Below, piece after piece: positions 6,080 through 63,465 of a stretch of 64,000 nt of DNA. The DNA comes from Leisingera sp. NJS204 (GTDB taxonomy: Bacteria > Pseudomonadota > Alphaproteobacteria > Rhodobacterales > Rhodobacteraceae), in the NCBI RefSeq assembly GCF_004123675.1, contig NZ_CP035420.1, positions 1 through 64,000 on the forward strand, in the 5' to 3' direction. The position numbers and the translations under genes were made by a program. Within the stretch, counting starts at the first letter, position 1. Each line of letters begins with the position of its first letter. Below the pieces are notes generated by a model. The model was not told the origin of the DNA and did not search any database. It worked only from the letters and a program-made list of their open reading frames with translations.

Positions 6080-6145
6080 ATTTCTCACAAGCATTATAAG
6101 CAGGCAGGCAATCTCCGCGGACCCTAAGGTCCGGCGCCGGCAAGA

Positions 6146-17964: not shown

Positions 17965-17975
17965 AGCATACACTC

Positions 17976-19217: not shown

Positions 19218-19341
19218 CCGGAGGCACGGAGAAGCAAACCTGTGCCGGAGGCACGGCAGATCAAAATCCAGCCGCAGGCCGGGCGCATAAAGCCTGAGCT
19301 GCAGGCGCAGACCATGAAACCGCAGCCGGAGGCATGAAAAC
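19190..19341 (+). repeat. 27-bp degenerate tandem repeat (5.5 copies) spanning a stop codon
   Basis: Units start at 19190, 19217, 19244, 19271, 19298 and 19325, each beginning GCCGGAGGCACGG or a variant. The period of 27 is nine codons. In the frame of the upstream glycosyltransferase they read VPEARRIKV, stop, PEARRSKPV, PEARQIKIQ, PQAGRIKPE, LQAQTMKPQ, PEA, then TGA at 19335. Confidence 0.85.
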
Positions 19342-37783: not shown

Positions 37784-38653
37784 TCAGCGGTTCAGGATGT
37801 CGCGGTGAAAACGGCCCATCAGGATCAGCCCGAGCGCAAACAGGATCAGGCTGGTGGCCAGCACATAGGTCACGCTGACGTAAGCGGCGGTATAGCTGGG
37901 ATAAAACCCGCTGCGCATCAGACCGGTGATATGCATCAAGGGGTTGAACCACAGGATGTCCTGCGCCAGCGGCGGCAGATCCTCATAAAGAAACAGCACG
38001 CCTGAGGCCAGGAACAGCGGCCGGGTGATCACCGACCAGGCCACGTCCCACAGCGGGTAGAGCCCCATCAGCACGCAGTTCAGGGTGCCGACTCCCAGCC
38101 CCAGCAGCAGCGAGAGCACCATGGCCAGCACTGCGGGCGGCAGATCCAGCACCGCGCGGCTGTCGGTCACCGCATAGACGCCGCCGATCAGCAGGAAGGT
38201 GATCAGGATGCCAGTCAGGCTGTTCAGCAGGAACCGGGCCAGCACCGCGTCCAGCCAGGTGACAGCCGGAAATTTCAGCAGCGGCTTGGAATAGGCAATC
38301 GCCCGGCCGGTGGTGGCTGAAATGCTTTGGTAGAGATTGAAGGGCAGAAAACCGGTGGCGTAGAACAGCAGGAAGCTGGTGCCCAGCGACGGGGTGCGGA
38401 TCACCAGAGAAAAGCCGATCGCCAGGAACAGAATGGCCGCCATCGGTTCGAGAATAGCCCAGAGATAGCCGCCGGGGGTGCGCCCGTAGCGGGTCGACAT
38501 CTCCCGCAGCACCAGGGCAGCCACTGTGCGCAAGGTGGCAAAGCGCCGGGCGCGCCCGGGGAGGGGCGGCTGGGCCGGAGACTGGACCGGATATTGGGCG
38601 GGGGGCAGGGCCGGAGACTGGGCTGGGGCCGCCGCAGGCGTGGTTCTGGTCAT
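37784..38653 (-). CDS. kpsM: Capsule polysaccharide ABC-2 permease (KpsM-like)
   Basis: A 289-residue inner-membrane permease with six hydrophobic segments. It has the family stretch VLREMSTRYGRTPGGYLWAILEPMAAILFLAIGF and the C-terminal FNPLMHITGLMRSGFYPSYTAAYVS typical of KpsM/Wzm of group 2 capsules. The N-terminal tail is Pro/Gln-rich and made by a 12-bp tandem DNA repeat (38571-38630). The ATPase (KpsT-like) and the KpsE-like gene lie just across on the other strand. Confidence 0.9.
   Translation of the reverse strand: MTRTTPAAAPAQSPALPPAQYPVQSPAQPPLPGRARRFATLRTVAALVLREMSTRYGRTPGGYLWAILEPMAAILFLAIGFSLVIRTPSLGTSFLLFYATGFLPFNLYQSISATTGRAIAYSKPLLKFPAVTWLDAVLARFLLNSLTGILITFLLIGGVYAVTDSRAVLDLPPAVLAMVLSLLLGLGVGTLNCVLMGLYPLWDVAWSVITRPLFLASGVLFLYEDLPPLAQDILWFNPLMHITGLMRSGFYPSYTAAYVSVTYVLATSLILFALGLILMGRFHRDILNR
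38571..38630. repeat. 12-bp tandem repeat in kpsM N-terminal tail
   Basis: Five 12-base units (TGGGCCGGAGAC and variants) encode the SPAQ-type repeats. The unit GGGCCGGAGACT matches the gspE coding-strand unit GGGCCTGAGACC at 10 of 12 bases, but on the opposite strand relative to the gene. Confidence 0.75.
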
Positions 38654-40170: not shown

Positions 40171-40824
40171 ATGATCCGCTTCGAAAACCTGACCAAGAGC
40201 TTCCGGCTCAAGGGCGAGCGCAAGGTGGTGATCGACAATCTGAACCTGACGCTGCCGCCGGGGAAATCCCTGGCGCTGCTGGGCCGCAACGGGGCGGGCA
40301 AGTCGACGCTGTTGCAGATCATTGCCGGCACCATGCGGCCCGATCACGGCCGGGTGGTGTCCGATGGCAGCATCTCCTGGCCGGTGGGGCTGGGCGGCTC
40401 GTTCCACCGTGATCTGACCGGCGCCGAGAATGTCCGCTTCATCGCCCGCATCTACGGGGTGGACACCCGCGATCTGGTCAATTTTGTCGGCGAGTTCGCC
40501 GAGCTGGGCAAATTCTACCACATGCCGATGCGCAGCTATTCCTCGGGCATGCGCTCGCGGCTGACCTTCGGCGCCTCGATGGGGATCCGCTTCGACACCT
40601 ATCTGGTCGACGAGGTAACGGCCGTGGGCGACCGGTCGTTCAAACGCAAGAGCCGGGCGGTCTTTGCCGACCGGATGAAGCATTCCAGCGCCATCATGGT
40701 CAATCATTCGATGGCGCAGATCCGCCAGTTCTGCAATGCCGGGCTGGTGCTGGAGGCCGGGCGGATCCGCTATTACGACGATCTGGACGCGGCGATTGCC
40801 GCGCATGAGGCGATGCTGGACTGA
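40171..40824 (+). CDS. kpsT: Capsule polysaccharide ABC ATPase (KpsT-like)
   Basis: The 217-residue ATPase has Walker A GRNGAGKST (about residue 45), signature YSSGMRSRL and Walker B FDTYLVDEV. The length and sequence match KpsT of group 2-type capsule export. It pairs with the KpsM-like permease (37784-38653). Confidence 0.93.
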   Translation: MIRFENLTKSFRLKGERKVVIDNLNLTLPPGKSLALLGRNGAGKSTLLQIIAGTMRPDHGRVVSDGSISWPVGLGGSFHRDLTGAENVRFIARIYGVDTRDLVNFVGEFAELGKFYHMPMRSYSSGMRSRLTFGASMGIRFDTYLVDEVTAVGDRSFKRKSRAVFADRMKHSSAIMVNHSMAQIRQFCNAGLVLEAGRIRYYDDLDAAIAAHEAMLD

Positions 40825-44967: not shown

Positions 44968-45165
44968 ATGAGTGCCGGATCCTGTGTTTGGTGCGGGTTT
45001 CAAGGCTGTGGTGTAGGGGATTTTCGCGCCGGAGACAATCGCCGTCCCGGACAGGCTGCGCAGCGGGTTGCGCTAAGCGGGAAAACTGTGCAGAGAAGCC
45101 GCAGGTTGCATCAGACGGTTTGGCGGCCCCGGTAATTTGACAGCGGCATCTCAGGTGATTTGACC

Positions 45166-46068
45166 ATGGCATTGCAATTTTTAAGGGCCGGCCTGCGCGC
45201 CCTGGCACAGAGATGGCGGCGGCAAACCGGGCCGAAGGATACCAGGGCTGAAAACACCGGGCCTGAAAACACTGGGCCTGCGGCTGACGGGCCGGCACCG
45301 CGGCTTTATGTCTTCGGGTCCTCCTCGTCAGAGGTTTTTGATTACATCTTCGGCGCCAGCCGGCGCTACCGCAGCTATTGGGCCGGCGGCTGGTCAGCCC
45401 GGGGGCTGCGGAAGGACGCGAACCGGGGCTATGTGCTGCAATGCCTGCAGCGGGCCCGGCCGCAGGACATCATTTTCCTGCACTACGGTGTGGTGGATGC
45501 AGCTTTCAGTTCGGGCTACCGCATGGACCGCGGGGATTTCCTTGATCCCGAAAGCTTTTGCCGGGAGGCAGCCGAAGGGGTCGGGATGCTGGTGCAGGAT
45601 CTGCGCGCGGCGGGCTTCAGCAATATCTATACAGTGGCCGTCGGCGCTCCCTGCCGGGTGCCGGAGCGGTATTTCCGTAAACGGTTCAAGCTGCACGGGC
45701 TGCCGCCGCGCTATCAGGCGCAGCTTTTGAACCGGATCAACCAGTTGATCAGCGGTTTCTGCGACCGGCGTGATCTGACACCGGTTCTGGGGGATGAGCA
45801 CGGGGTGCTGAAGCGGGAATACCACCGGGCCAAGCCGAATCACCATGCCGATTACGTCAGGATCCAGGAACTGGTCTGGGAGGGGATCCGGGATATTCCC
45901 GGTCTGCCGCCGCGCCGCGCGGATTGGCGCACGGTGCTTTATAAAAGCGGTGTGCGCGGCGGGGTCGGCAAGAAAATCAGAGCGGAAAACTACCGGGCGG
46001 CCAATCTGAAGCGGTTCGAGCCCGCAGCGGCCTTGCCGCGGGAGAAAGCCCCGGCAGTGGAGGCATAA
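45166..46068 (+). CDS. SGNH-like polysaccharide-modifying protein, paralogue A
   Basis: A 300-residue protein I do not recognise with certainty. Residues near 48-60 read LYVFGSSSSEVFDYIFG, later DIIFLHYGVVD, RADWR and PNHHADYVRIQ. The GSS, YGxVD and HHADY blocks recall SGNH/GDSL hydrolase blocks I, III and V, suggesting an esterase or O-acyl modifier. The N-terminus is basic and not a signal peptide, so it likely acts in the cytoplasm. It carries a 15-bp repeat tract (45244-45287, PENTG units). A clear paralogue follows. Confidence 0.55.
   Translation: MALQFLRAGLRALAQRWRRQTGPKDTRAENTGPENTGPAADGPAPRLYVFGSSSSEVFDYIFGASRRYRSYWAGGWSARGLRKDANRGYVLQCLQRARPQDIIFLHYGVVDAAFSSGYRMDRGDFLDPESFCREAAEGVGMLVQDLRAAGFSNIYTVAVGAPCRVPERYFRKRFKLHGLPPRYQAQLLNRINQLISGFCDRRDLTPVLGDEHGVLKREYHRAKPNHHADYVRIQELVWEGIRDIPGLPPRRADWRTVLYKSGVRGGVGKKIRAENYRAANLKRFEPAAALPREKAPAVEA
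45244..45287 (+). repeat. 15-bp tandem repeat in SGNH-like paralogue A
   Basis: About three units of GGGCCTGAAAACACC encode G-P-E-N-T. The core GGGCCTGA is shared with the repeat tracts in gspE and the LuxR gene. Confidence 0.7.
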
Positions 46069-46203
46069 GGCGGGCCTGCGGAAAACTGCCGGTCTGCCGG
46101 GCGGACCGGCAGGCAGCCGGGTTGCCACAGGGGCGGGCAGTCCGTTAGCAGTGGGCGCAAAGTGCAGAGATGGGGCCATGGCCCGGCAGCCTTGGACACA
46201 ACG

Positions 46204-48325
<2,122 letters not shown>

Positions 48326-51078: not shown

Positions 51079-52689
51079 ATGTCAGAGACACTATTGCTGG
51101 ATTGCACGTTGCGGGATGGCGGATATTACAATGCCTGGGATTTTCCGCAAGAACTGATCGAAACGTATTTGGAGGCCATGAGAGCCGCCCGGGTCGATAT
51201 TGTCGAGATCGGCTTCAGGTTCTTGAAAAACAACGGTTTCAAAGGATCTTGCGCCTATACCAGCGATGATTTCCTGCGCAGTTTGAACATTCCGGAAGAG
51301 TTGCAAGTTGCGGTCATGGTGAATGGGGCCGACCTGCTGACGGACCTTGGGCTTGAGGCTTCCCTGGAACGGTTGTTCCCGGAGCCGGCCGCCGCCACGC
51401 CGGTTGACCTGGTGCGCATCGCTTGCCACTTCCGCGAGGTCAAGCAGGTGCTGCCGGCAGTGACCTGGCTGGTCGAGCGGGGGTACCGGGTCGGGTTCAA
51501 CCTGATGCAGATTGCCGACCGGAGCCGTGAAGAGGTGGTGGAACTGGCCCGTGAAGCGCGCGCCTGGCCGGTGGAAGTGCTCTATTTTGCCGATAGCATG
51601 GGCAGCATGACGCCTGCGGATACGGCCCGTATTATCGGCTGGCTGCGCGAGGAATGGGACGGTCCTATCGGCATACACACCCATGACAACATGGGGCTGG
51701 CATTGCAAAACACGCTGCGGGCGCAAGCCGAAGGCGCCACTTGGCTGGATGCCACTGTGACCGGCATGGGCCGTGGCCCCGGCAACGCCCGTACCGAAGA
51801 GCTGGTGATCGAGGCGGCGGAACGGCGCGGCCGTCCGGCCAACTTGGTTCCGCTGATGAGCCTGCTGCAGCGGCATTTCCAGCCGATGAAAGAACAGTAT
51901 GGCTGGGGGACCAACCCGTATTACTATCTGTCCGGGAAATACGGAATCCATCCGACCTATATTCAGAATATGCTGCTCGACTCCCGCTACAGCGAAGAAG
52001 ATGTCCTGGCCGTCATTGAACACTTGCGCCAGGAAGGCGGCAAGAGCTTCAGTGCCGGCACCCTTGATGGCGCCCGCAATTTTTACCAAGGCGCGCCGCA
52101 AGGGACCTGGCAGCCGCGCTCGATGCTGGAGGGCCGCGAGGTGCTGATCCTTGGCGCGGGGTCCGGCGCAGAGCAGCACCGCACGGCGCTTGAGGCCTAT
52201 GTGCGCCGGGCGCAGCCGGTGGTGATCGCGCTGAATACCCAAAGCGGTATCTCCGAAGACCTGATCGATCTGCGCGCGGCCTGCCATCCGGTGCGGCTGA
52301 TGGCCGATAGCGAGGCGCATCTGGCGCTGCGCCAGCCGCTGATCACCCCGGCCTCAATGCTGCCTGCGGATCTGAGCGGCCCGCTCAGCGGCAAGGAGCT
52401 TCTGGACTTTGGCGTCAGCCTCGCCGAGGGCCGGTTTGAGTTCGGCGACAGCCACTGCGCATCCCCAAGCCTGCTGGTGCTGGCCTATGCGCTGGCAGTT
52501 GCCGCCGCCGGAAACGCCAGCCGGGTGCTGCTGGCCGGCTTTGACGGGTATGCGCCGGGCGACGCGCGCAACCGCGAGGTTGAGGAGGTTTTGCGGCTTC
52601 TGGAGAACACCGCGGGCAGCCCGCAGGTGGTTTCGATCACGCCGAGCCGCTACAAGCATCTCAAGCAAATATCAGTTTATGGAATGTGA
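51079..52689 (+). CDS. DRE-TIM (HMGL-like) aldolase fused to a second domain; candidate ulosonate synthase
   Basis: The 536-residue protein has an N-terminal TIM barrel (1-320) of the HMG-CoA lyase/4-hydroxy-2-oxovalerate aldolase type. It shows LLDCTLRDGGYYNAWDF with the Arg-Asp pair, the metal ligands IHTHDNMG and GMGRGPGNARTEEL. Residues 345-536 form a second, Rossmann-like domain (REVLILGAGSGAEQHRTAL ... AGNASRVLLAGFDGYAPGD). It is followed by a KdsB-like CMP transferase and a HAD phosphatase, so I infer that it condenses pyruvate with a sugar to an ulosonic acid, replacing KdsA or NeuB. The reaction is inference from neighbours. Confidence 0.72.
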   Translation: MSETLLLDCTLRDGGYYNAWDFPQELIETYLEAMRAARVDIVEIGFRFLKNNGFKGSCAYTSDDFLRSLNIPEELQVAVMVNGADLLTDLGLEASLERLFPEPAAATPVDLVRIACHFREVKQVLPAVTWLVERGYRVGFNLMQIADRSREEVVELAREARAWPVEVLYFADSMGSMTPADTARIIGWLREEWDGPIGIHTHDNMGLALQNTLRAQAEGATWLDATVTGMGRGPGNARTEELVIEAAERRGRPANLVPLMSLLQRHFQPMKEQYGWGTNPYYYLSGKYGIHPTYIQNMLLDSRYSEEDVLAVIEHLRQEGGKSFSAGTLDGARNFYQGAPQGTWQPRSMLEGREVLILGAGSGAEQHRTALEAYVRRAQPVVIALNTQSGISEDLIDLRAACHPVRLMADSEAHLALRQPLITPASMLPADLSGPLSGKELLDFGVSLAEGRFEFGDSHCASPSLLVLAYALAVAAAGNASRVLLAGFDGYAPGDARNREVEEVLRLLENTAGSPQVVSITPSRYKHLKQISVYGM

Positions 52690-52693
52690 TCCC

Positions 52694-53434
52694 ATGACGG
52701 CCTGTGTGATTATCCCCGCCCGCTATGCTTCGACCCGCTATCCCGGCAAGCCGCTGGTGCCGCTTCTTGGTAAGCCGATGGTTCTCTGGGTGGCTGAGCT
52801 CAGCGCCCGTGCGGTAGGCCGGGAACATGTTTATGTGGCCACCGAAGATGACCGCATAAGCGAGGTGGTGGAGGCCGCAGGCTTTAAGGCGCTGATGACG
52901 GGCAAAGACGCGCTGACGGGCACCGACCGGCTGGCCGAGGCCGCGCAGATGATCGACTATGACATCTATGTTAATGTGCAGGGCGACGAACCGCTGGTAA
53001 ATCCTGCGGATATCAAGCGCTGCGTCGACCTGAAGGCCGCAGATCCCAGCCTGATCGTCAACGGCTTTGCCTGGGTCAGCGATGAAGAGGATCCGCACAG
53101 CGTTAACATCCCCAAGGTCATTACCACCGAGGACGATGTCATGGTGTATATGTCGCGGCTGGCGCTGCCGGGCTTCAAGGATCCGGGATGTGCACCGGAA
53201 CGCTACAAGAAGCAGGTCTGCATCTACGGCTTTACCCGCGAGGAGCTGCAGGCGTTCCAAGGGTTCGGCCGTAAGGGCGCGCTGGAAAGAAGCGAGGACA
53301 TTGAAATCCTGCGGTTCCAGGAACTGGGGCGCAAGATTGTAATGTATGAAACTTCGCCCGGCACCATGGCAGTGGATGTGCCTGAGGATGTGGCACCGGT
53401 CGAAGCGGCCCTGCGCAGGCTGTGGAACCTGTGA
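52694..53434 (+). CDS. CMP-ulosonate synthetase (KdsB-like)
   Basis: A 246-residue cytidylyltransferase that activates a 2-keto-3-deoxy acid with CTP. The N-terminal loop PARYASTRYPGKPLVPLLGKP, TEDDRI and VNVQGDEPLV are KdsB motifs; the length fits (about 250). The ATG at 52694 has GGA 10 bases upstream and follows the aldolase stop by 4 bases. Because no kdsA, kdsC or kdsD lies here, the substrate may be a KDO relative made by the aldolase. A housekeeping KDO role is possible. Confidence 0.88.
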   Translation: MTACVIIPARYASTRYPGKPLVPLLGKPMVLWVAELSARAVGREHVYVATEDDRISEVVEAAGFKALMTGKDALTGTDRLAEAAQMIDYDIYVNVQGDEPLVNPADIKRCVDLKAADPSLIVNGFAWVSDEEDPHSVNIPKVITTEDDVMVYMSRLALPGFKDPGCAPERYKKQVCIYGFTREELQAFQGFGRKGALERSEDIEILRFQELGRKIVMYETSPGTMAVDVPEDVAPVEAALRRLWNL

Positions 53435-54081
53435 TGCCGGCGGGCTACCGGACATTGGTCTTCGACTGCGACGGGGTGATCCTGGATTCCAACCGGGTGA
53501 AGACCGAAGCCTTCCGCCAGGCGGCGCTGCCCTACGGCGCAGAGGCGGCAGAGGCGCTGGTGGCGCATCACGTGGCCAATGGCGGCATCTCCCGCTACCT
53601 GAAGTTCCAGCATTTTCTGGACGGGATTGTGCCTGGCCGGAACGGCCCCGGGCTGGAAGAGCTGCTGGCGTCTTATGCCGGTGCTGTGCGGGCCGGGCTG
53701 ATGACCTGCGCAGCCGCGCCGGGGCTGCAGGAGCTGCGCGCCGCCTTCCCGGATCAGCGCTGGCTGATTGTCTCGGGCGGGGATCAGGCCGAGCTGCATG
53801 ACATCTTTGCCGCGCGCGGGCTGGACGGGTTGTTTGATGGCGGCATCTTCGGCAGTCCCGACACCAAGGATGCGATCCTGGCGCGGGAACTGGACAGCGG
53901 CAATATCCGGCCGCAGGCGCTGTTCCTGGGGGACAGCACCTACGACCACCGCGCTGCCGCTGCAGCTGGCCTGGACTTCGTGTTCATCAGCGGCTGGAGC
54001 GAGGTGGCGGACTGGCAGGGGTACGTGCGCACGCATGGCCTGAAGAAGCTGGCAAATGTTGGAGAACTCCAGGATCTGTGA
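53434..54081 (+). CDS. HAD-superfamily phosphatase
   Basis: A 215-residue HAD hydrolase with motif I FDCDGVILDSNRVK, a cap domain, motif II IVSGGD, and motif IV FLGDSTYDHRAA. The start ATG overlaps the previous stop by one base (TGATG). As third gene after the aldolase and the CMP transferase it fits removal of a phosphate from the ulosonate product, as KdsC does. A general sugar phosphatase cannot be excluded. Confidence 0.8.
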   Translation: MPAGYRTLVFDCDGVILDSNRVKTEAFRQAALPYGAEAAEALVAHHVANGGISRYLKFQHFLDGIVPGRNGPGLEELLASYAGAVRAGLMTCAAAPGLQELRAAFPDQRWLIVSGGDQAELHDIFAARGLDGLFDGGIFGSPDTKDAILARELDSGNIRPQALFLGDSTYDHRAAAAAGLDFVFISGWSEVADWQGYVRTHGLKKLANVGELQDL

Positions 54082-54129
54082 CAGGCCATGGCGCCGTTGG
54101 CATATTCTTCGCGGGAAAGGGAGCAGCAG

Positions 54130-56061
54130 GTGAACACACAGAATAAGCTCACCGTATTGACGGACTTTGAGGAATGCGCGCCTGCTGAGGACGTTTACCT
54201 TGCGGATTGTGCGTCGCTTGTGCGGAACGCCGGCACTGACGGCTGTTTCACGCGGTTGCACGGCAGCCCGGAGGCTTGGGATTGTGCCGCAGACCGCCCG
54301 GTTCTGGTGCTGTATGAACGGGCGGAAACCGCCGTCAGCACCGGTCTCGCCCGCGGATTAAGCCCCGCGCAGGCTTTGAAAAACTGGGAAGATCAAGCGC
54401 AGGAACTGCTGGCGTTCTGCCGCCGGAACCGCCGTCAGGTTGCACTGATGGAGGCGGAGAATCTGATCAGCTCCCCGGAGGCGATGCTGGAGCGGGCTTG
54501 CGGGCATCTTGGCATTGCTTCGCTGCCGGAGCCGGACCTGGAACGGCCCGCAGAACCGGCGGGGCCGGTCTGGGAGGGTATCGCGGCTCTGGCTGTGGCG
54601 CGCTCTGCCGCGGCCGCGGCGCTGAATGCTGAGCTTGAGGCGAGAGCCATTCCAGCAGATGCCGCGCAGCCGGAAGCTTTGGAGATTGCGGAGCGGGCCG
54701 CGCAGGATTACCGGCGGCAGCTGAACGGGCTGGCAGAGCAGGAGGTTTTGAAAACAGCCTTCGATGCGGCGCAGAAAGAGATACAAACCCTGGGCCGGGA
54801 ACGGCCGGCCCAGAAAACCGCATTGGACGCTCAGACCCATCTGGCCGCGCTGAAGCAAAGCCAGGCGGAGCTGCTGCAGGTGCAGCTGCGCAGTCTTCAG
54901 GACGCATTGGAAGCGGAACGGCGCGATTTTCAGGGCGTATTGGAAGAGAAACGGCGCAATGCGGCGAATCTTGTCAAGGTTCAAGGGGCCTTGGAGGAGA
55001 CCCGGGCGGCGCTGAAAAAAGAGAGTGAGGTCAGGAAGCGGCGCGGCAGGATCGTGGGTGAATTGAGTGAGCAGGTGGCGGCTCTGGAAGCGGCGCAGAG
55101 TGAACGCGATGGCTGGCTGACGGACAAGGATGCCCAGCTGCAGGCTGTTTGGAACTCGACGTCCTGGCGGATGACTGCGCCTCTGCGGTGGGTCAAACTT
55201 GCAGTAAACGGTCAGCTGCACACCGTGCATAAGCAGCCCGGCCCGGAAGAGGCGCAGCCCGGCGGCGCAGGGGAGGAAAATGTGCTGGAAGCCCCGGAAA
55301 TAAATGCTCCGGCTGGTTCCGCCGGACCGAAAGTTTCGGTGGTGACTGTTGTGTACTGTGACGCAGACGGGTTGGAAAACACACTCGGGAGCGTGCGGCG
55401 GCAGAGTTATCCAAATATCGAGTACGTGGTGGTCGATGGAGCATCTCCGGATCGCACCCGGGAGATTCTGGACGCACAGGCCGGGTCAATCGATGTTTTG
55501 ATTTCGGAACCGGACAAAGGGATTTACGACGCCATGAACAAAGGCATCGCGGCGGCCTCCGGGGATTACATCATATTCATGAATGCCGCCGATACTTTTG
55601 CTCATGACAATACGCTGGAGGAAGTGGCTGCTGAGCTGACCGGGGAAGATGTCGTGTATGGGCATAGGTACTATATGCGGAAGTCCGGTCCTGTTTTGCA
55701 GGCTTCCCATCCAGCGGATTATGTGCGCCAGCGGATGCCCTATTGCCATCAGTCTGCGTATTACCGCCGGGAGGTCCTGCAACAGCATCCGTTCAACCTG
55801 GCCTACAAATACGCCGCCGATTACAATCAAGTGGTGGAAATGTTTGTGGCAGGGTGCTCGTTCAAACAGATCGACAAGGCGTTGTGTAATTTTGAGCCGG
55901 GCGGCGCGTCAGAATCCGGAATTAGGCCGTATCTGGAAGTGTTGAAAATCCAGTTCGATAATTTTGGGGACGGGGACCACATGAAAGAGAGTGAGTACAT
56001 GCAGGGTTTTGTTGCCAATGCCCCCAATCTCTTGAAAAACTATCAGAATGAGAGAGGGTAA
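54130..56061 (+). CDS. Coiled-coil / family-2 glycosyltransferase fusion
   Basis: The 643-residue protein has an N-terminal domain of about 110 residues shared with the protein at 62566-63465 (VLYERAETAVSTGLARGLSPAQALKNWEDQAQELL). A long coiled coil (about 200-330) and a C-terminal GT-A domain follow (VSVVTVVYCDADGLENTLGSVRRQSYPNIEYVVVDGASPDRT ... IFMNAADTFAHDN). GTG 54130 is preferred because AAAGGGAG lies 7 bases upstream and this start aligns with the paralogous domain; ATG 54088 has no good site. No export signal is seen. The coil probably makes oligomers or docks on other scaffold-like proteins here. Confidence 0.78.
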   Translation: MNTQNKLTVLTDFEECAPAEDVYLADCASLVRNAGTDGCFTRLHGSPEAWDCAADRPVLVLYERAETAVSTGLARGLSPAQALKNWEDQAQELLAFCRRNRRQVALMEAENLISSPEAMLERACGHLGIASLPEPDLERPAEPAGPVWEGIAALAVARSAAAAALNAELEARAIPADAAQPEALEIAERAAQDYRRQLNGLAEQEVLKTAFDAAQKEIQTLGRERPAQKTALDAQTHLAALKQSQAELLQVQLRSLQDALEAERRDFQGVLEEKRRNAANLVKVQGALEETRAALKKESEVRKRRGRIVGELSEQVAALEAAQSERDGWLTDKDAQLQAVWNSTSWRMTAPLRWVKLAVNGQLHTVHKQPGPEEAQPGGAGEENVLEAPEINAPAGSAGPKVSVVTVVYCDADGLENTLGSVRRQSYPNIEYVVVDGASPDRTREILDAQAGSIDVLISEPDKGIYDAMNKGIAAASGDYIIFMNAADTFAHDNTLEEVAAELTGEDVVYGHRYYMRKSGPVLQASHPADYVRQRMPYCHQSAYYRREVLQQHPFNLAYKYAADYNQVVEMFVAGCSFKQIDKALCNFEPGGASESGIRPYLEVLKIQFDNFGDGDHMKESEYMQGFVANAPNLLKNYQNERG

Positions 56062-56065
56062 AGAC

Positions 56066-56767
56066 GTGCATTTCTTCCTGCACATTCCAAAATGCGGCGG
56101 ATCGACTATTCGCCAGTACTATGCTTCTGCATTCGCTCCGGTACTCAGGATTCAAAGCGGGCCCCGAGGGGACGTCGCGGCTGCCGATTTTCCCCGCTTT
56201 CAAGGGGTTTTTAGTTATGGTGCAATCGTCGGGCACTTACGGTTCGATCAATTCATTGAAAACAATGAGGCCGCATCCTATCCTGATCCTTTCGTGATAC
56301 ATAGTGTCATACGGAATCCGGTCGACCGGCTGATCAGCCTGTATAACTTTATTAAATACAACAAGGTTCATCCTGAACATGACCAAGTGCGCCACCTGAA
56401 TGGTGTGCGCTTTGTACTGGATTGCACGCGAAATTCTCAGGCAAGATACCTGGGGATAAACGCGTGTTTCGCAAACATCTCTGAAGTTTCTAACCATATA
56501 AATTTGATTGATCTCGAAACCTCTGTGCAGAGAATGCACGAGTATTTCACGTCCAATCTCAAGAAAGAAATTGGATTGGCTGAAAGAAAAAATATTACGT
56601 CGAGAAACTTTGTGAAAGAGGGGCAGCCGATGCTGAGCAGGGCCGATTTCACGGAAAGCCAGCTGCAGCAGTTGGAGGATGCGCATTCTCTCGATATACG
56701 GCTGCACAAGCTCTCCCGCGAGAAGAAGACTTTGAAGACGTTTTCGTTTACCCGTGCCGGGGGCTAG
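56066..56767 (+). CDS. Sulfotransferase family-2 protein (sulfotransferase-like 4)
   Basis: A 233-residue protein with FFLHIPKCGGSTIRQYY, the PAPS 5' loop of carbohydrate sulfotransferases, and VIRNPVDRLISLYNFIKY as the 3' motif. GTG 56066 is preferred because GAGGG lies about 8 bases upstream and it follows the glycosyltransferase stop by 4 bases; ATG 56048 overlaps and lacks a site. Its codons are distinctly richer in A and T than the neighbours, suggesting recent acquisition. Confidence 0.8.
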   Translation: MHFFLHIPKCGGSTIRQYYASAFAPVLRIQSGPRGDVAAADFPRFQGVFSYGAIVGHLRFDQFIENNEAASYPDPFVIHSVIRNPVDRLISLYNFIKYNKVHPEHDQVRHLNGVRFVLDCTRNSQARYLGINACFANISEVSNHINLIDLETSVQRMHEYFTSNLKKEIGLAERKNITSRNFVKEGQPMLSRADFTESQLQQLEDAHSLDIRLHKLSREKKTLKTFSFTRAGG

Positions 56768-56820
56768 GCTGATGCAGAAGGGCGAAAAAGAGGGATGCGC
56801 TGTTGCGTGTGATTTGACCA

Positions 56821-58017
56821 GTGACTGAGAATTCTGAGTTTTTCACAGACGCCGGGCTGTGGCGTGATATCCTATTTGCGGATGCTTACAGCCTGAAGGG
56901 GAAGACTTCGGCTGAAAAGCAGGCTACACGCGATGTCTGGTTGCGCGATTTCCTCTATTCGGACTACCGCCTGCCGCAGCAGCGCGAGACCGGTGCGGTG
57001 TTCTTCCGCAGTCTGGTGCGCGATGATTACAAGGGGCTGTTCCATGCGGTGATCGGCGCCTCGGGGATCCGCGACCGGGTGGTGGTGGAGGAGTATCAGC
57101 ACCGGACCCCCCGGCTGAACGCTGCTGCCAGCCGCTACATGATGGAAAATGCGGCTGTCTTTGATGCGCTGGATATTGCGGATCCGCTGGACCGGGCCTG
57201 CTGTTTCATCCGCGCCTGCAAGTACGGTTTTATTCTGGAGCATTTCCGGAAGATGACGTTCAAGGCGCTGATCTGTTTTGCGGATATGCAGCCGGTAGAG
57301 CATCTTCTTGCACGTTATTTCCGCGCCCAAGGGGTTACCACCCTCACCCTGCAGCACGGGCTGTATGTGGATTACGGCGATATGGATACGGTGAATGTGA
57401 TCAACTACCAGCACCAGCCGTCGGAATACTTTCTGTCCTGGGGGCCTGAGAGTTCGCAGCTGATCAAACACCACCATCCGGGAAACACCACGGTGAATTG
57501 CGGCAAGCCGCTGATTTTCAATGCGTCTGGCGACGAGGTTTCGGAGAAACCCCAGCCCTATATCGCGGTGTTCCTGGATCAGAGGATCTTTAACCAGCAG
57601 AATGAAGAAATGCTGCAGATCGCCTCGGCCTGTGCCCGCCGCACGGGGCGCACGGTCAAGGTGCGCTTTCATCCGTCGATCCGCAAGGAGGAGTTCCTGC
57701 AGAGATTTCCGGATATCCGCGAACAATTGCATTTCCAGGATGCGGATTTCGTTATTGGCCACACCTCGTCGCTGATTTATGAAGCCTTGTCGCTGGGCTG
57801 CCGGGTGCTGCGCTACGACAGCGAGGTGCCGGGTATTCCGTTACCGGACAGCTGCACGTTCCGTACGCTGGAGCAGTTGGAGGCCCGCTTGGCATTGCCG
57901 CAGCCCGAAGGGCTGGCACAGCAGTATTTCTGTGCAACTGGCGAGGCATCTCTGCGCCGTTATGCAGATTTTTTCCGGGAGGTGCTGCCGGATCTTGCCG
58001 GGCAGGCTGCTGCCTGA
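56821..58017 (+). CDS. GT-B glycosyltransferase with sialyltransferase-like HP and SS motifs
   Basis: The 398-residue protein has LTLQHGLYVDYGD (about 175-187), VRFHPS (281-286) and IGHTSSLIYEAL (312-323). HP and S-S motifs in this order are the CMP-binding marks of bacterial sialyl/polysialyl-type transferases, so the CMP-ulosonate made by the upstream module is a reasonable donor. The start is GTG 56821. It may instead belong to the glycerophosphotransferase-like capsule families, which share a similar fold. It ends before a terminator. Confidence 0.62.
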   Translation: MTENSEFFTDAGLWRDILFADAYSLKGKTSAEKQATRDVWLRDFLYSDYRLPQQRETGAVFFRSLVRDDYKGLFHAVIGASGIRDRVVVEEYQHRTPRLNAAASRYMMENAAVFDALDIADPLDRACCFIRACKYGFILEHFRKMTFKALICFADMQPVEHLLARYFRAQGVTTLTLQHGLYVDYGDMDTVNVINYQHQPSEYFLSWGPESSQLIKHHHPGNTTVNCGKPLIFNASGDEVSEKPQPYIAVFLDQRIFNQQNEEMLQIASACARRTGRTVKVRFHPSIRKEEFLQRFPDIREQLHFQDADFVIGHTSSLIYEALSLGCRVLRYDSEVPGIPLPDSCTFRTLEQLEARLALPQPEGLAQQYFCATGEASLRRYADFFREVLPDLAGQAAA

Positions 58018-58095: not shown

Positions 58096-59073
58096 CTATT
58101 TGGCCCGCAGATTATCCAGCCCCTGCGCCAGGAACCACTCATAAGTGCCGCGCACCCCGGTCTCCAGCCCGATCCCGGCCTGCCAGCCCAGCCGTTTGAG
58201 CCGCGACACATCCATCAGCTTGCGCGGGGTGCCGTCGGGTTTTGACGGGTCGGTCAGGATCTCCCCTTCAAACCCCGTCACCTCTGCCACCAGCTGCGCC
58301 AGCTCCAGGATCGACACATCCGCGCCGCAGCCCACATTGATATGGGAGAGCATCGGCTCGGTCTCGCGCTGATACGTCTGCGCCTCGAGATCCATCACAA
58401 ACAGCGAGGCCGCCGCCATGTCGTCCACATGCAGGAACTCGCGCCGGGGCGTGCCGGAGCCCCAGATGGTGACGCTCTCTGCGCCGGCCGCGGCCGCCTC
58501 GTGGAAGCGGCGGATCAGGGCGGGCAGCACATGGCTGTTCTCCGGGTGGAAATTGTCGCCCGGCCCGTAAAGGTTGGTCGGCATCACCGAGCGGTAATCC
58601 ACGCCGTACTGGCGGTTGTAGCTTTCACACAGCTTGATGCCGGCGATCTTGGCAATTGCATAAGGCTCGTTGGTGGGCTCCAGCACGCCTGTCAGCAGCG
58701 CATCCTCGGCCATCGGCTGGTCTGCCAGCTTGGGGTAGATGCAGCTTGACCCCAGCTGCAGCAGTTTTTTCACCCCGGCCTCATAGGCGGCGTGGATGAC
58801 GTTGCACTCGATCATCAGGTTTTCATAGATGAACTCAGCCGGGTAGCTGTTGTTGGCAACGATGCCGCCCACTTTGGCAGCGGCCAGAATGACCTGATCG
58901 GGCTGTTCCGCCTGCATGAAGGCGCGCACCGCGGCCTGATCGGTCAGATCCAGCTCGGCGCTGCTGCGGGTGATCAGCGCAAGCTCTTCGCCTGCGTCCC
59001 GGCGCGTCTGCAATTGCCGCAGGATCGCCCCCCCGACCATGCCGCGGTGGCCTGCCACATAAATCCGGGTCAT
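58096..59073 (-). CDS. fcl: GDP-L-fucose synthase
   Basis: The 325-residue bifunctional epimerase-reductase makes GDP-L-fucose from GDP-4-keto-6-deoxymannose. It shows [45 protein letters not shown] and [29 protein letters not shown], the signature of Fcl. ATG 59073 follows the gmd stop by 4 bases. It forms an operon with gmd upstream. Confidence 0.95.
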
Positions 59074-59077
59074 GACC

Positions 59078-60196
59078 TTAGCCCTCAACGCTGACCGGCA
59101 GATCCATGCCGTGCTCTTTCAACAGCGCATGGCGGCGGGCGGTTTTCAGATCCTCGGCGACCATCTCGGCGCACATTTCCTGGGTGGTGATTTCCGGCAC
59201 CCAGCCCAGCTTTTCCTTGGCCTTGGCGGGATCGCCGAGCAGCGTCTCCACCTCTGCCGGACGGAAATAGCGCGGGTCGATCCGCATGATCACGTCACCC
59301 GCCTTCAAGCTGGGGGCGTTATCGCCCTCAATCGCGGCCACGGTGGCAATCTCGTCGATGCCGCTGCCGGAAAACTCCAGGTGAATGCCCAGCTCGGCTG
59401 CCGACCATTGGATGAACTGGCGGACTGAGTACTGCTTGCCGGTGGCGATCACAAAATCCTCCGCCGCGTCCTGCTGCAGCATCATCCACTGCATCCGCAC
59501 GTAATCTTTGGCATGGCCCCAGTCGCGCAGCGCGTCGATGTTGCCCATATACAGGCAGGGCTCCAGCCCTTGCGCGATATTGGCCAGGCCGCGGGTGATC
59601 TTGCGGGTCACAAAAGTCTCGCCGCGGCGCGGGCTCTCGTGGTTGAACAGGATGCCGTTGCAGGCATACATGCCATAGGCCTCGCGGTAGTTCACCGTGA
59701 TCCAATAGGAATAGAGCTTGGCCACCGCATAAGGCGAGCGCGGGTAGAACGGCGTCGTCTCGCGCTGCGGCGTCTCCTGCACCAGCCCGTAAAGCTCCGA
59801 GGTCGAGGCCTGATAGAAGCGGGTCTTCTTCTCCAGGCCGAGGAAACGGATCGCCTCCAGCAGGCGCAGGGTGCCCATGGCATCCACATCGGCGGTGTAT
59901 TCCGGGCTTTCAAAGCTCACCGCCACATGGGACTGGGCGCCGAGGTTATAGACCTCGTCGGGCTGCACTTCCTGCAGGATCCGGGTCAGGTTAGACGTGT
60001 CGCTCAGATCGCCGTAATGCAGCTTCAGGCGGGCATGATCCACATGCGGATCCTGGTAGATGTGATCGACCCGCTGAGTGTTGAATGATGAGGCGCGGCG
60101 TTTGATGCCATGCACTTCATAGCCCTTCTCCAGAAGGAACTCTGCAAGATAGGAGCCGTCCTGGCCGGTGATGCCGGTGATAAGAGCTTTTTTCAT
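59078..60196 (-). CDS. gmd: GDP-mannose 4,6-dehydratase
   Basis: The 372-residue enzyme begins [46 protein letters not shown], the exact start of Gmd. It has [39 protein letters not shown] with the catalytic Thr/Tyr/Lys set. It converts GDP-mannose to the 4-keto-6-deoxy sugar used by Fcl. Confidence 0.97.
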
Positions 60197-60279: not shown

Positions 60280-61212
60280 TTAAGCGGTTTCCGGGTCCGG
60301 GTCATAATCCAACCGGGCGCAGAGGGCCGCATAGCTGGATGAGACGCGGACTTCCTGCTTCACATCTTCCGGCACGGGCCGCCGCGGGCGGGGAGCGATC
60401 ACCCCGTCGCCGCGGCCGCTGTCGCCGGAGAGCTGCACCGCGGAAAAATCCTCCTGGAAACCTGGATTGAAAGCCAGATCCAGAATGCTGCAAATCTGCC
60501 GCATGCACATTTCAGGCTCTGCCAGAAAGTCCTCATAGCGCAACAGCTCCGCACCGGCATAGAGATCAAGGAAAGCCAGGTAGCGGCGGGCATATTCCTC
60601 AAGACCGGCCGGCTGCCAATGCACCCATTTCCGGCGCAGGAGACTCAGATACGAATCCAGCGGATGGCGCACGCTCACCAGGCTCAGCAGCCGGTAGTTT
60701 CCCTCCAGCATTTGCTGCAGCGAGGGCCGTTCCGGGATTTTACTGCCGCAGCAGAAATGGCTGTGGGCATGGTCGCGCAGGATCAGGTCGCGCCCCTCGG
60801 CCCGGGTGTCTTCGGCCAGCGCTGCAAGGCCGGCCCGGAAGATGCGCAGCAGGGTGTCCTGCCCCGGCGGGCTGGACCCGAGCTTAGCCAGACCGATCAG
60901 GTCAGCAGGCAGGAAGCTGTTTTTGTGCGTTAGCCGGCTCAAAGGATCCACTTCGCTCAGCAACCGGGTGCACGGCATGGCTGCGATGCATTTGCTGATC
61001 AATGTGCCGCCGGTGCAGGCAAAGTGATGCACCGTGCGCAGCACTGGACGCTGCGGGCGGCCGGCCAAAGTTTCAGCCTCTGCCAGCAGGTTTTGCAGCT
61101 CCTCTGAATTCCGCAGCCGCTCTGCCAGCGCGGGATCCCGCTGAGCGGCGGCCAGGGCCAGCTGGCGTTGCAAGCCCTGGAGGGTAGAGACGCGCGGGAC
61201 CAGGCCGTTCAC
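60280..61212 (-). CDS. Sulfotransferase-like protein 5
   Basis: The 310-residue protein has a helical N-terminal 60 residues, then [20 protein letters not shown] as a P-loop-like 5' motif and [23 protein letters not shown] as the 3'-phosphate motif with R-H-P. GTG 61212 overlaps the stop of the upstream gene as GTGA. It is more diverged than the other four; sulfotransfer is inferred from the two motifs. Confidence 0.65.
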
Positions 61213-62564
61213 GTGCTTTGGCCCTCCTTCAGACGCGCAGGCGCAGCCGCGGCCTCCGCAAGCACCAGACCGGCCTCTTCTGAAGGCGCTTCATCCACCA
61301 GATATGCAAGGCAGGCTTTGGTGCGCTGGAGCAAATCATCCTGCGCCTCCTGGCGTTCCAGAAGTGCGCTGTAGCGTGCCTGCAATTCTTTCAGATCAGC
61401 CTCGCGCTGGCTCTGCAGCCGCAGGGCCACTGCCAGGTTCTGCTGGGCTTTCCGGGCCTCGGCTTCGCGGGCTGCGGCCTGCTCCAGCGCTTGTGCCTGG
61501 CGCGCGGCCTCTGCATCCTGGTCCGCCGCCTTTGCAGCCAGTGCTGCGGCCTCGGCACGCGCGCTGTCACGCTCCGCAACCGCCTGCTCCCGCGCCTGTG
61601 CCTGGCGAGCCGCCTCTGCATCCTGGTCCGCAACCTTCGCAGCCAGCTCCGCGGCTTCGGCACGCGCGCTGTCACGCTCCGCAACCGCCTGCTCCAGCGC
61701 CTGTGCCTGGCGCGCCGTCTCCGCATCCTGTTCCGCAACCTTCGCAGCCAGTGCTGCGGCCTCGGTGCGTGCGCTGTCACGTTCCGCAACCGCCTGCTTC
61801 CGCGCCTGCGCCTGGTGCCCGGCCTTTGCTTCCAGCTCGGCAGAACGGAGTTCACTTGCCTGCTGTGCGGCCCCGGTTGCAGCCAGTTTTTTTTCCAGAT
61901 CAGCCACCTGAAGAACGAGCGGTTCCTGCTCCAGAAAACAGGCCGGGAAATCAGGGTCTTGGTTTTCCGTATGCCGCAACCGCCACCCTGCAGTGTGCAG
62001 ACGCTGCAGAATCTCCGCCATGGGCTCGCTGCCTTCGTAGAGCGGGGCAGCAGGGAGGGAAAGGTAGAGATGCTGGAATTTGGAGAGCAGGCCGGAAGCC
62101 TGCAGCTGGCGAAGGATTTCGGCTTCCTGGCCGGGGCAATCAATTGCCAGAAGGTTGCAGCCAGGCCCGGTCCGCTCCGGCATATCAAGCAGGCTGGTTA
62201 CGGGCTCGGCTTTCACCTGCACTGTATCGGTCTGGCGCAGGCCGGGGAAAACTTTTTCCAGCCCGTCCGGCCGGCAGCAGCTGGACAGGGAGCGGATGTT
62301 GAAGATGTGAAAGGGGCGCTCTCCGGACTCGTCCGCGACCGCTGCTTCGCGCAGTTGAACGCCGGCAGCAATGCAGGCCGGTCTGAGTGCTGCAGCCCTT
62401 TCCGGGTCTGCTTCGGTCAAGAGAATATGTTCAGCACCGCTGTCCAGGCAGGCTTTGACGGTATCCGGACCGGCTTTGCCGGCCCCCAGATAGACCAGTG
62501 TGCCGAGGCCGCCTGATTGGCTGATCCGGGAAAGCTGTTTCTGGAAGAAGGTGCTGTTTTGCAT
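61209..62564 (-). CDS. FkbM-methyltransferase-like protein with long coiled coil
   Basis: The 451-residue protein has an N-terminal Rossmann-like region (TLVYLGAGKAGPDTVKACLDSGAEHILLTEADPERAAAL) followed by LLAIDCPGQEAEILRQL, as in FkbM-type methyltransferases. From about residue 215 it is a coiled coil with three and a third exact 35-residue repeats. ATG 62564 follows the upstream stop by one base. The methyltransferase fold may be degenerate, serving only as a scaffold domain. Confidence 0.65.
   Translation of the reverse strand: MQNSTFFQKQLSRISQSGGLGTLVYLGAGKAGPDTVKACLDSGAEHILLTEADPERAAALRPACIAAGVQLREAAVADESGERPFHIFNIRSLSSCCRPDGLEKVFPGLRQTDTVQVKAEPVTSLLDMPERTGPGCNLLAIDCPGQEAEILRQLQASGLLSKFQHLYLSLPAAPLYEGSEPMAEILQRLHTAGWRLRHTENQDPDFPACFLEQEPLVLQVADLEKKLAATGAAQQASELRSAELEAKAGHQAQARKQAVAERDSARTEAAALAAKVAEQDAETARQAQALEQAVAERDSARAEAAELAAKVADQDAEAARQAQAREQAVAERDSARAEAAALAAKAADQDAEAARQAQALEQAAAREAEARKAQQNLAVALRLQSQREADLKELQARYSALLERQEAQDDLLQRTKACLAYLVDEAPSEEAGLVLAEAAAAPARLKEGQST
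61477..61823 (-). repeat. 105-bp tandem repeat in coiled-coil gene
   Basis: Units start at 61477, 61582 and 61687 (each 105 bases), with a partial unit at 61792. Each encodes a 35-residue, alanine-rich coil unit (AVAERDSARAEAA core). Differences between units are few. Confidence 0.9.
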
Positions 62565-62565
62565 G

Positions 62566-63465
62566 TTATTTGCGGCCCTGTTGGATCTGTTCCTGCCCTG
62601 CCTGGTTCTGACGCAGAGACCGCAGCGGGGCGATAAGGCGGAAAATTCCGGCGGTGAGAGAGTGCAGCCGCGTTTGCTTCGGCGTCCGGGCGCCAAGCAG
62701 GCGGTCTTGCAGCAGGGCCGTATGGGCTTCCAGGCTGCGGATTTTCCGGCCCGCGGCCTGCAGCGCCTGCTCTTTTGCAGCGATCCGCCGCTGCTGTGAC
62801 TCTGCCAGGCGGCAGTTCAGGATTTGAAGGGTTTCCAGTTCTTGATGCATCAGGTTTTTCTGCTCCTGCAGGAGGGCAGCCTGTGCGTCAGCATTCCGGT
62901 GAGCCTGTATCGCGGCGGTTGTGTTCAGGCTTGCGGCAGCGGAGGGCGCGGCAGGGGGCAGCGCGGCCTGTTGCACCGCTTGAGCCAAGCTCAGCACAAT
63001 GCTGTCCTGCTGCAGGCAGGCTGTGGCGAGTGCCAAAAGAACCGGGTCGTCTGCTGCGTCGTCTGCCACTGGAGGGACGGAGGGTGCCGACTCGTCCGGG
63101 GCGCCGCCGCCGGGCAGGCCCAGATGTGTGATAAATGCTTGTGGAGAAAGGATAAACTGGCTGAGTCCGGCGACCGCTGTTTGTGCCCCCTCTTCACGGA
63201 CCGCACACAGGATATCTTCGGCTTGTGCGGACCAGGCGGCCAGGGCGTCTGCCGGGGCCTGATCCTGCAGAAGCGCCTGGTACAGATGGTGCTCTGGAGT
63301 TTGATAAAGCAGCAATGCCGGGCCGCGGCTTGCCTCCAGCGGAGAGTTCAGCCGGGTCAGGCCGAAGCGATCGGATAACGCGGCTAGAGCCTGACCATAA
63401 GCCGCATCCTCCGGGTACCAGATGTACCGCGCCTCCGCCTTGGCGGCCTTAGGAGTTACATTCAT
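62566..63465 (-). CDS. Coiled-coil protein sharing an N-terminal domain with the 54130 glycosyltransferase
   Basis: The 299-residue protein has an N-terminal domain (LLLYQTPEHHLYQALLQDQAPADALAAWSAQAEDIL) homologous to residues of the 54130 gene. A coiled-coil C-terminal part (NLMHQELETLQILNCRLAESQQ ... ALQAAGRKIRSLEAHTALLQDRLLG) and a basic tail follow. ATG 63465 is chosen because the homologous domain begins there in both proteins; a TTG at 63537 would add 24 residues without support. No catalytic motifs are seen. Confidence 0.6.
   Translation of the reverse strand: MNVTPKAAKAEARYIWYPEDAAYGQALAALSDRFGLTRLNSPLEASRGPALLLYQTPEHHLYQALLQDQAPADALAAWSAQAEDILCAVREEGAQTAVAGLSQFILSPQAFITHLGLPGGGAPDESAPSVPPVADDAADDPVLLALATACLQQDSIVLSLAQAVQQAALPPAAPSAAASLNTTAAIQAHRNADAQAALLQEQKNLMHQELETLQILNCRLAESQQRRIAAKEQALQAAGRKIRSLEAHTALLQDRLLGARTPKQTRLHSLTAGIFRLIAPLRSLRQNQAGQEQIQQGRK

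Follow-up and report, generated by a model that had tools for sequence, protein, structure and literature searches.

A gene trio of Leisingera sp. NJS204 that may encode a pyruvate-aldolase route to a CMP-activated ulosonic acid other than Kdo

A candidate CMP-ulosonate module

The window analysed here is a 64,000-nucleotide stretch of DNA, the first 64 kb of the 140,681-base contig C4 (NZ_CP035420.1) of the marine bacterium Leisingera sp. NJS204, which has a 5.04 Mb genome. It contains three closely packed genes that encode an HMGL-type aldolase, a KdsB-like cytidylyltransferase and a HAD phosphatase. On balance, we consider it likely that this trio constitutes a dedicated pyruvate-aldolase route to a cytidine monophosphate (CMP)-activated 3-deoxy-2-ulosonic acid other than 3-deoxy-D-manno-oct-2-ulosonic acid (Kdo). 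A module for a CMP-ulosonate had been proposed at this position in a first-pass annotation made from the letters alone, and the proposal is strengthened by the linkage of the aldolase to a CMP-sugar synthetase gene in all 78 uncut loci, by the exchange of synthetase subfamilies and by the loss of Kdo-lobe residues in the KdsB-like clade. The genes and domains of principal interest are:

51079..52689, + strand: aldolase, 536 amino acids (Pfam HMGL-like)
51079..52113, + strand: aldolase catalytic domain, residues 1-345, HMGL-like DRE-TIM barrel, proposed pyruvate aldolase (Pfam, Foldseek and metal-site residues)
52114..52689, + strand: aldolase C-terminal domain, residues 346-536, Maf/MptE/Cst-I-like Rossmann fold, proposed to bind CMP or a CMP-sugar
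52694..53434, + strand: KdsB-like cytidylyltransferase, 246 amino acids, with a non-Kdo pocket signature of M153, Q174, C176, I203 and I205 (CTP_transf_3, NF009905)
53434..54081, + strand: HAD-IA type phosphatase, proposed ulosonate-phosphate phosphatase (Pfam Hydrolase, 49.8 bits; linkage)
56821..58017, + strand: HP/SS protein, 398 amino acids, candidate CMP-ulosonate transferase (motifs; co-occurrence with the full-length aldolase)

The tight packing at 51079-54081 is as first claimed: four bases (52690-52693) separate the aldolase gene from the KdsB-like gene, which overlaps the HAD gene by one base within TGATG at 53432-53436. The listed open reading frame (ORF) of the HAD protein begins with GTG at 53422, and the ATG at 53434 was taken as its start. 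The HP/SS gene, expected four to five genes on, is the fifth past the aldolase and the third past the HAD gene. The existence of homologues in many species shows these four ORFs to be real genes.

Conservation of the trio and exchange of the synthetase

A scan for the aldolase using one genome per species confirmed 129 relatives, of which we retained the best 80, each with up to 10 kb of flanking sequence; together with the window, these make up 81 aldolase loci. A CMP-sugar synthetase gene is found on the same strand within 4 kb downstream in 78 of them, and in the remaining three (L033, L043 and L048) the contig edge lies at the aldolase end or within about 200 bases of it. The synthetase starts no more than 60 bases past the aldolase stop in 68 of the 78 loci. 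A same-strand HAD gene comes next in 73 of the 78; in 66 it is no more than 120 bases from the synthetase. The module occurs in Proteobacteria, Cyanobacteria, Planctomycetes, Actinobacteria and Bacillota. Conservation of gene set and order, exchange of partners, families, folds, the altered sugar pocket and presence of the module where no Kdo transferase was detected were all computed directly.

The synthetase is KdsB-like in 51 of the 78 loci and NeuA/PseF-like in 27, and Pfam CTP_transf_3 is matched by representatives of each. A quick tree built from the 81 aldolases shows 18 changes of partner type, at least 12 of which are forced by well-supported branches, and even close relatives (L001 and L002, as well as members of a Halomonas group) differ in partner type. 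Enzymes of the CTP_transf_3 family are known for making CMP-ulosonic acids. Since the two types replace one another in the same slot, the swap suggests that the pathway ends in a CMP-ulosonate with either synthetase. The NeuB/NeuA and PseI/PseF pathways of nonulosonic acid synthesis resemble the module in that a NeuA/PseF-like enzyme can fill the synthetase slot; they differ in that the trio has no NeuB-type synthase, and the three partners scanned scored 65-67 bits against a PseF cut-off of 205.7.

Apart from these families, clustering of the flanks gave one frequent group, a merged cluster of 50 members from 35 loci, an example of which looks by eye like a GDP-mannose dehydratase. No further dedicated gene common to the loci was seen, which suggests that the aldehyde substrate comes from central metabolism. 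The lack of a common modifying gene would also suit a simple sugar, and it is possible, if somewhat short of probable, that the pathway runs as proposed toward a 3-deoxy-ulosonic acid already known from some polysaccharide, so that only the enzymes are new; this possibility overlaps the reading given above. Structural work on polysaccharides has provided 3-deoxy-hexulosonic and 3-deoxy-pentulosonic acids as examples of such sugars, which counts in its favour, while no strain of the set was linked in this analysis to a published polysaccharide structure. Among the matches listed in a search of open-licence literature, outside which most subscription journals fall, no paper describes the module in its title or the start of its abstract, and PMC13171606 gave no hits for aldolase, HMG or KdsB.

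The aldolase catalytic domain

The first-pass annotation described the aldolase as a DRE-TIM enzyme distinct from KdsA and NeuB, which agrees with our results. HMGL-like (residues 6-251, 95.6 bits) is the only Pfam family that it matches at E≤0.01, and at this threshold there is no match to the DAHP/KdsA or NeuB families; a NeuB or KdsA in disguise was ruled out on this basis. By both sequence and structure, the best solved match of the catalytic domain is PDB 3dxi (Foldseek E-value: 6.4e-20, template modelling score of 0.90 by target length), followed in Foldseek by DmpG-type aldolases. When the whole aldolase was submitted, only TIM-barrel enzymes were found among the best 50 matches listed. 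3dxi is BVU_2661 of Bacteroides vulgatus, deposited as the "N-terminal domain of a putative aldolase", a title in which no function was seen, and it has the DCTLRDGGYY start and the WGTN region in common with the window protein; the solved structure covers the N-terminal domain only.

Like the 4-hydroxy-2-oxovalerate aldolases DmpG and BphI, the module aldolases have a DRE-TIM barrel with an R-D and two-histidine metal-site motif: R12 and D13 are present in 80 of 80 readable sequences, and H200 and H202 in 81 of 81. They differ from DmpG and BphI in having another kind of C-terminal domain, in their linkage to CMP-sugar synthetases and in carrying a tyrosine (Tyr16, 80 of 80) at the position aligned with His21 of DmpG, a catalytic residue. 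Since the metal-site residues are kept and His21 is replaced, the aldolase is related to, yet distinct from, the DmpG-type enzymes. Its donor would be pyruvate.

One could argue from the DmpG-type fold and metal site that this is a catabolic 4-hydroxy-2-oxovalerate aldolase present in a polysaccharide locus by chance, an outcome that the first-pass annotation had named as fatal to its proposal. By sequence, this does not hold. The aldolase scores 94.6 bits with the equivalog model TIGR03217, far under the cut-off of 286, His21 is replaced in every readable member, no aldehyde dehydrogenase family was found among the 20 window genes searched by Pfam, and the conserved linkage is to CMP-sugar synthetases. 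We therefore ruled out this candidate and regard the explanation as highly improbable.

In two rhizobial plasmid loci (L142, 5983-9821, and L144, 5980-9227), shorter aldolase relatives that lack the C-terminal domain adjoin HAD-IA hydrolase genes, with aminotransferase or short-chain dehydrogenase/reductase (SDR) genes near; these loci perhaps encode a small-molecule pathway. HAD-family neighbours of shorter relatives were seen on Paraburkholderia and Mesorhizobium plasmids. No features are listed around a Streptomyces relative. Because such relatives adjoin HAD genes and have no annotated CMP-sugar synthetase, the aldolase-HAD pairing may be older than its use for CMP-sugars.

The KdsB-like synthetase and Kdo

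The families first assigned to the second and third genes of the trio are borne out, with Pfam Hydrolase matched by the phosphatase and both CTP_transf_3 (113.3 bits) and NCBIfam NF009905 by the KdsB-like protein. The HAD protein has only weak nearest relatives among solved structures. The trio shares with the KdsA-KdsC-KdsB pathway, and with KpsU, the logic of an aldol step, a phosphatase and CMP activation, and its last enzyme is homologous. However, the aldol enzymes are unrelated (phosphoenolpyruvate (PEP) is used by KdsA, while pyruvate is presumed for the module), the module HAD has no match to the KdsC model, and the sugar pocket of the last enzyme differs.

To describe this pocket, 30 reference KdsB loci, including the genome's own KdsB, were taken from 144 genomes with a match. 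Conservation and tree comparisons used 48 of the 51 KdsB-like loci, and the count of pocket residues used all 51. The residues of the CTP and metal site (R10, K19, D98 and D232 in P0002 numbering) are kept in all 48 module enzymes compared and in all 30 references. The module enzymes retain 38 of 50 strongly conserved KdsB positions, and the positions that they never keep are all in the C-terminal lobe. A histidine at P0002 position 174 is present in 30 of 30 references and in none of the 51 module enzymes, 49 of which have glutamine. Similarly, Phe153 is replaced by methionine (48 of 51), Gly176 by cysteine (48 of 51), Leu203 by isoleucine (49 of 51) and Gln205 by isoleucine (49 of 51). These single lobe residues presumably contact Kdo. 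In a tree with the references, 47 module enzymes form one clade with support of 100; L059 lies outside the group tested. In the solved KdsB structure, the C-terminal lobe binds Kdo, according to PMC3149649.

It could be proposed that the module makes Kdo after all: the aldolase would replace KdsA by using pyruvate, and the KdsB-like protein would be a capsule-specific CMP-Kdo synthetase of the KpsU type whose product goes into a poly-Kdo linker or into a repeat unit that contains Kdo. Among solved structures, the KdsB-like protein is closest to 1gq9 (E-value: 3.4e-41), which we take to be E. coli KpsU, the score with NF009905, a family named for Kdo, is just above the cut-off (259.5 against 255 bits), the window contains ABC exporter genes, and KpsC/KpsS-type genes are present in the genome. 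The KpsC/KpsS-type matches, however, are on contig C1, with none on the window's contig, and 1gq9 retains the histidine and glycine lost in the module enzymes. Furthermore, a KdsA (413 bits) and a KdsB (343 bits) are encoded elsewhere in the genome, on contig C1, so the window protein is a second copy beside them.

The distribution of Kdo genes also argues against this proposal. WaaA, the Kdo transferase, was detected in none of ten actinobacterial and Bacillota genomes that carry the aldolase, several of which are metagenome assemblies given without completeness figures, and KdsA was over the cut-off in only one (Bacillus sp. PS06). The synthetase is a standard KdsB-like enzyme in four of the ten (L029, L045, L046 and L054), NeuA-like in four and of an odd type in two (L056 and L059); in the four with the standard enzyme, WaaA was found in none and KdsA in one. 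Both genes were found in 4 of 4 Gram-negative comparison genomes. The first-pass annotation had allowed that the synthetase might serve only lipid A Kdo; given the genome's other KdsA and KdsB, this does not hold by sequence. With the pocket loss and the WaaA-free genomes, a KpsU-like role or Kdo supply for lipid A is made unlikely, and we consider it quite doubtful that the product is Kdo.

In Bacillus sp. PS06 (G668, the genome of L046), a KdsA-type gene (407 bits) is located at C29:1636-2400, and WaaA was not found. A further KdsB-like ORF, much longer than usual (621 bits with the family profile), was observed in L030 (Amphritea) at 17970-19280, approximately 6 kb beyond the aldolase.

The aldolase C-terminal domain

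An extra Rossmann-like domain that might modify or bind the product had been proposed at the C-terminus of the aldolase, and this suggestion can now be given a more specific form. Residues 346-536 make up a separate, well-predicted domain (predicted local distance difference test score of 94.5 when modelled alone) that is present in 80 of the 81 aldolases, the other (L048) being truncated by a contig end. VIA-align comparison of the predicted structure gave a Maf/Cst-I-like fold at 14-15% identity; the likeness to Maf and Cst-I was seen only by this program, as neither is among the best 50 Foldseek matches for the domain. The results of a profile search were mixed: 14 of 43 members match Pfam MptE-like PF01973 at E≤1 (best 1.4e-4), and the window's own domain does not. 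Structure alignments of the aldolase took in 62 and 43 of the 81 sequences. The domain differs from the Maf glycosyltransferase and the GT42 sialyltransferase Cst-I in being fused to an aldolase. Judging from the modelled fold, it most likely binds CMP or the CMP-sugar; it may act as a sensor or in channelling, a role as transferase being less likely.

The HP/SS protein as a candidate transferase

At E≤0.01, neither Pfam nor NCBIfam has a family that matches the HP/SS protein. Compared alone with the PDB, it gave two chance-level matches (E-values: 0.56 and 1.4), and a profile of eight HP/SS sequences gave none at E≤10. It does contain the VRFHPS and GHTSS motifs first noted, with HP at residue 284 and HTSS at residue 314. 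Within one protein, this pair is weak evidence, because HP followed 20-50 residues on by [ST]S also occurs in 144 of 2000 shuffles. Stronger evidence is the conservation of both HP and HT[ST][ST] in 8 of 8 homologues, including the window's protein. The sialyltransferase-like character first assigned to the motifs is thus upheld in part: the pair is conserved as in the HP-motif sialyltransferases of GT38, GT52 and GT80, while the protein differs from these in having no Pfam or PDB sequence match and in lacking the D/E-D/E-G motif of known bacterial sialyltransferases, absent from all eight homologues. According to PMC2169525, where that motif is defined, HP takes part in binding CMP-N-acetylneuraminic acid (CMP-Neu5Ac) in NmB-polyST and PmST1.

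Among 292 Rhodobacterales genomes, homologues of the HP/SS protein were found in two (G000 and G123), the same two that have the full-length aldolase; in the remainder, the best aldolase match is no better than an E-value of 1.8e-20, and those listed cover the barrel only. The gene order in G123 is aldolase, KdsB-like, HAD, GT2 and HP/SS, without the sulfotransferase-like gene that precedes HP/SS in the window. In 72,556 plasmid records, the HP/SS protein was found in two, which are also the only two whose match spans 80% or more of the aldolase. A scan of 398 genomes across the phylum found the aldolase C-terminal domain in two (G000 and G643) and the HP/SS protein in G000, to which a single weak and partial hit in G345 can be added; in G643 the domain is thus present and HP/SS is not. 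In L. caerulea (L101) and Gilvimarinus (L057), HP/SS and GT2 domains are fused, which suggests a two-headed polymerase.

An alternative is that the HP/SS protein uses a different donor, with some other enzyme attaching the ulosonate, perhaps the Maf-like C-terminal domain of the aldolase. The occurrence of HP and SS-like motifs in CDP-alditol transferases counts for this alternative, as do the absence of D/E-D/E-G, the CMP-sialyltransferase-like fold of the C-terminal domain and the fact that no HP/SS homologue was found in most fetched loci. The shared occurrence of HP/SS and full-length aldolase in two of 292 genomes and in two plasmid records argues against it, and these shared placements may reflect transfer of one whole locus. 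We consider the alternative somewhat unlikely and favour the HP/SS protein as the likely candidate transferase at the window locus. Its rarity elsewhere suggests that other transferases serve most modules or are encoded outside the fetched flanks.

Proposed pathway

In the pathway that we propose, the HMGL-type enzyme would condense pyruvate with an aldehyde, probably an aldose phosphate out of central metabolism, as its fold and metal-site residues suggest. The HAD enzyme, by its linkage, would then take off the phosphate. The KdsB-like enzyme would couple the resulting sugar acid to CMP, in keeping with its family, conserved catalytic residues and changed pocket. In a last step, limited to the window locus and a small number of related ones, the HP/SS protein and its GT2 partner would add the sugar to an ABC-exported, probably sulfated polysaccharide, in a locus that encodes fucose and galactofuranose precursor genes. 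We infer the order of steps, the phosphorylated aldehyde, the pyruvate donor and transfer by HP/SS.

The two known entries into CMP-activated acidic sugars are both PEP-based. A plausible though tentative extension of our reading is that the module represents a third route to CMP-ulosonic acids beside those of KdsA and NeuB, in which a metal-dependent pyruvate aldolase bearing a sialyltransferase-fold domain works with either synthetase subfamily to make a non-Kdo, maybe undescribed sugar. In its boldest form, the fused domain may help to handle or transfer the CMP-sugar of the pathway. In our reading, CMP-ulosonate synthesis would here use another aldolase family, one to which a sialyltransferase-fold domain is fused, and the product is probably a sugar acid other than Kdo. 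If so, a pyruvate-based route joins the PEP-based entries, and sugar synthesis and the sialyltransferase fold are combined in a new fusion. Many surface-polysaccharide loci would also be misnamed, the second gene being publicly annotated as a Kdo enzyme (as in Leisingera sp. M527), and these bacteria, Gram-positives included, would produce a sugar acid whose presence in them glycobiologists would not expect.

Several observations weigh against this interpretation. Partner types are mildly clustered on the aldolase tree (18 changes against a shuffled mean of 22.8, with 6 of 500 shuffles as low), and the two synthetase types may go with different products. Ten loci have a second aldolase of the HpcH/HpaI type, which makes the bond-forming enzyme there ambiguous. 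Tyr16 may mean that the chemistry differs from that of DmpG, and the shorter aldolase relatives have aminotransferase, SDR or, in Priestia, meta-cleavage genes nearby and no annotated CMP-sugar synthetase. With respect to the KdsB-like enzyme, besides its NF009905 score, the 30 references are the best-scoring loci rather than a random set, 4 of the 12 conserved positions lost (37, 51, 54 and 66) are in the first half of the protein, the CTP-binding part, and Kdo or one of its stereoisomers could still be accepted by the changed pocket. The product may also differ between loci, as the pocket reads LAHHH in the actinobacterial L056 and L059. Finally, the HP/SS gene has a strong match in just 4 of the 80 fetched loci and a weak one in three more, with flanks of 10 kb at most.

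The HpcH/HpaI aldolase lies between the HMGL-type aldolase and the synthetase, which is NeuA-like in L009, L050, L051, L053, L055, L062, L066 and L067 and of the odd KdsB-like type in L056 and L059. At 9693-13575 in L066 (Thiomicrospira), both KdsB-like and NeuA-like synthetases, both kinds of aldolase and one HAD gene are present; loci of this type may make two CMP-sugars.

Genomic context of the window

The trio is surrounded by a polysaccharide locus with genes for UDP-galactopyranose mutase, GDP-mannose dehydratase, GDP-fucose synthase, glycosyltransferases, sulfotransferase-like proteins and an exporter-type ABC permease and ATPase:

37784..38653, - strand: ABC-2 permease, candidate capsule exporter (Pfam ABC2_membrane, 58.6 bits)
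40171..40824, + strand: ABC ATPase, candidate capsule exporter (Pfam ABC_tran, 59.4 bits)
47153..48325, + strand: UDP-galactopyranose mutase, Glf (TIGR00031, 314.8 bits against 303.75)
54088..56061, + strand: large protein with a C-terminal GT2 glycosyltransferase domain at residues 417-535 (Pfam Glycos_transf_2, 82.9 bits)
56048..56767, + strand: probable sulfotransferase (Pfam Sulfotransfer_2, 22.6 bits against a cut-off of 22)
58096..59088, - strand: GDP-L-fucose synthase (annotation in the Leisingera sp. M527 plasmid, 93.6% identity)
59078..60196, - strand: GDP-mannose 4,6-dehydratase (annotated gmd in M527, 99.5% identity)

We take the window to belong to a Leisingera plasmid, because its aldolase closely matches plasmid copies in Leisingera sp. 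M527 (138,883-base plasmid, 99.8% identity) and L. caerulea (91.8% identity).

Two adjoining window genes (45160-46068 and 46162-47121) have no Pfam match, and both match positions 5963-6696 of the M527 locus (L100), where only part of the pair is left, as if shortened by recombination. The protein encoded at 61209-62696 (- strand) has AQALEQAVAERDSARAEAA-type repeats in its second half and, judged by eye, probably forms a coiled coil.

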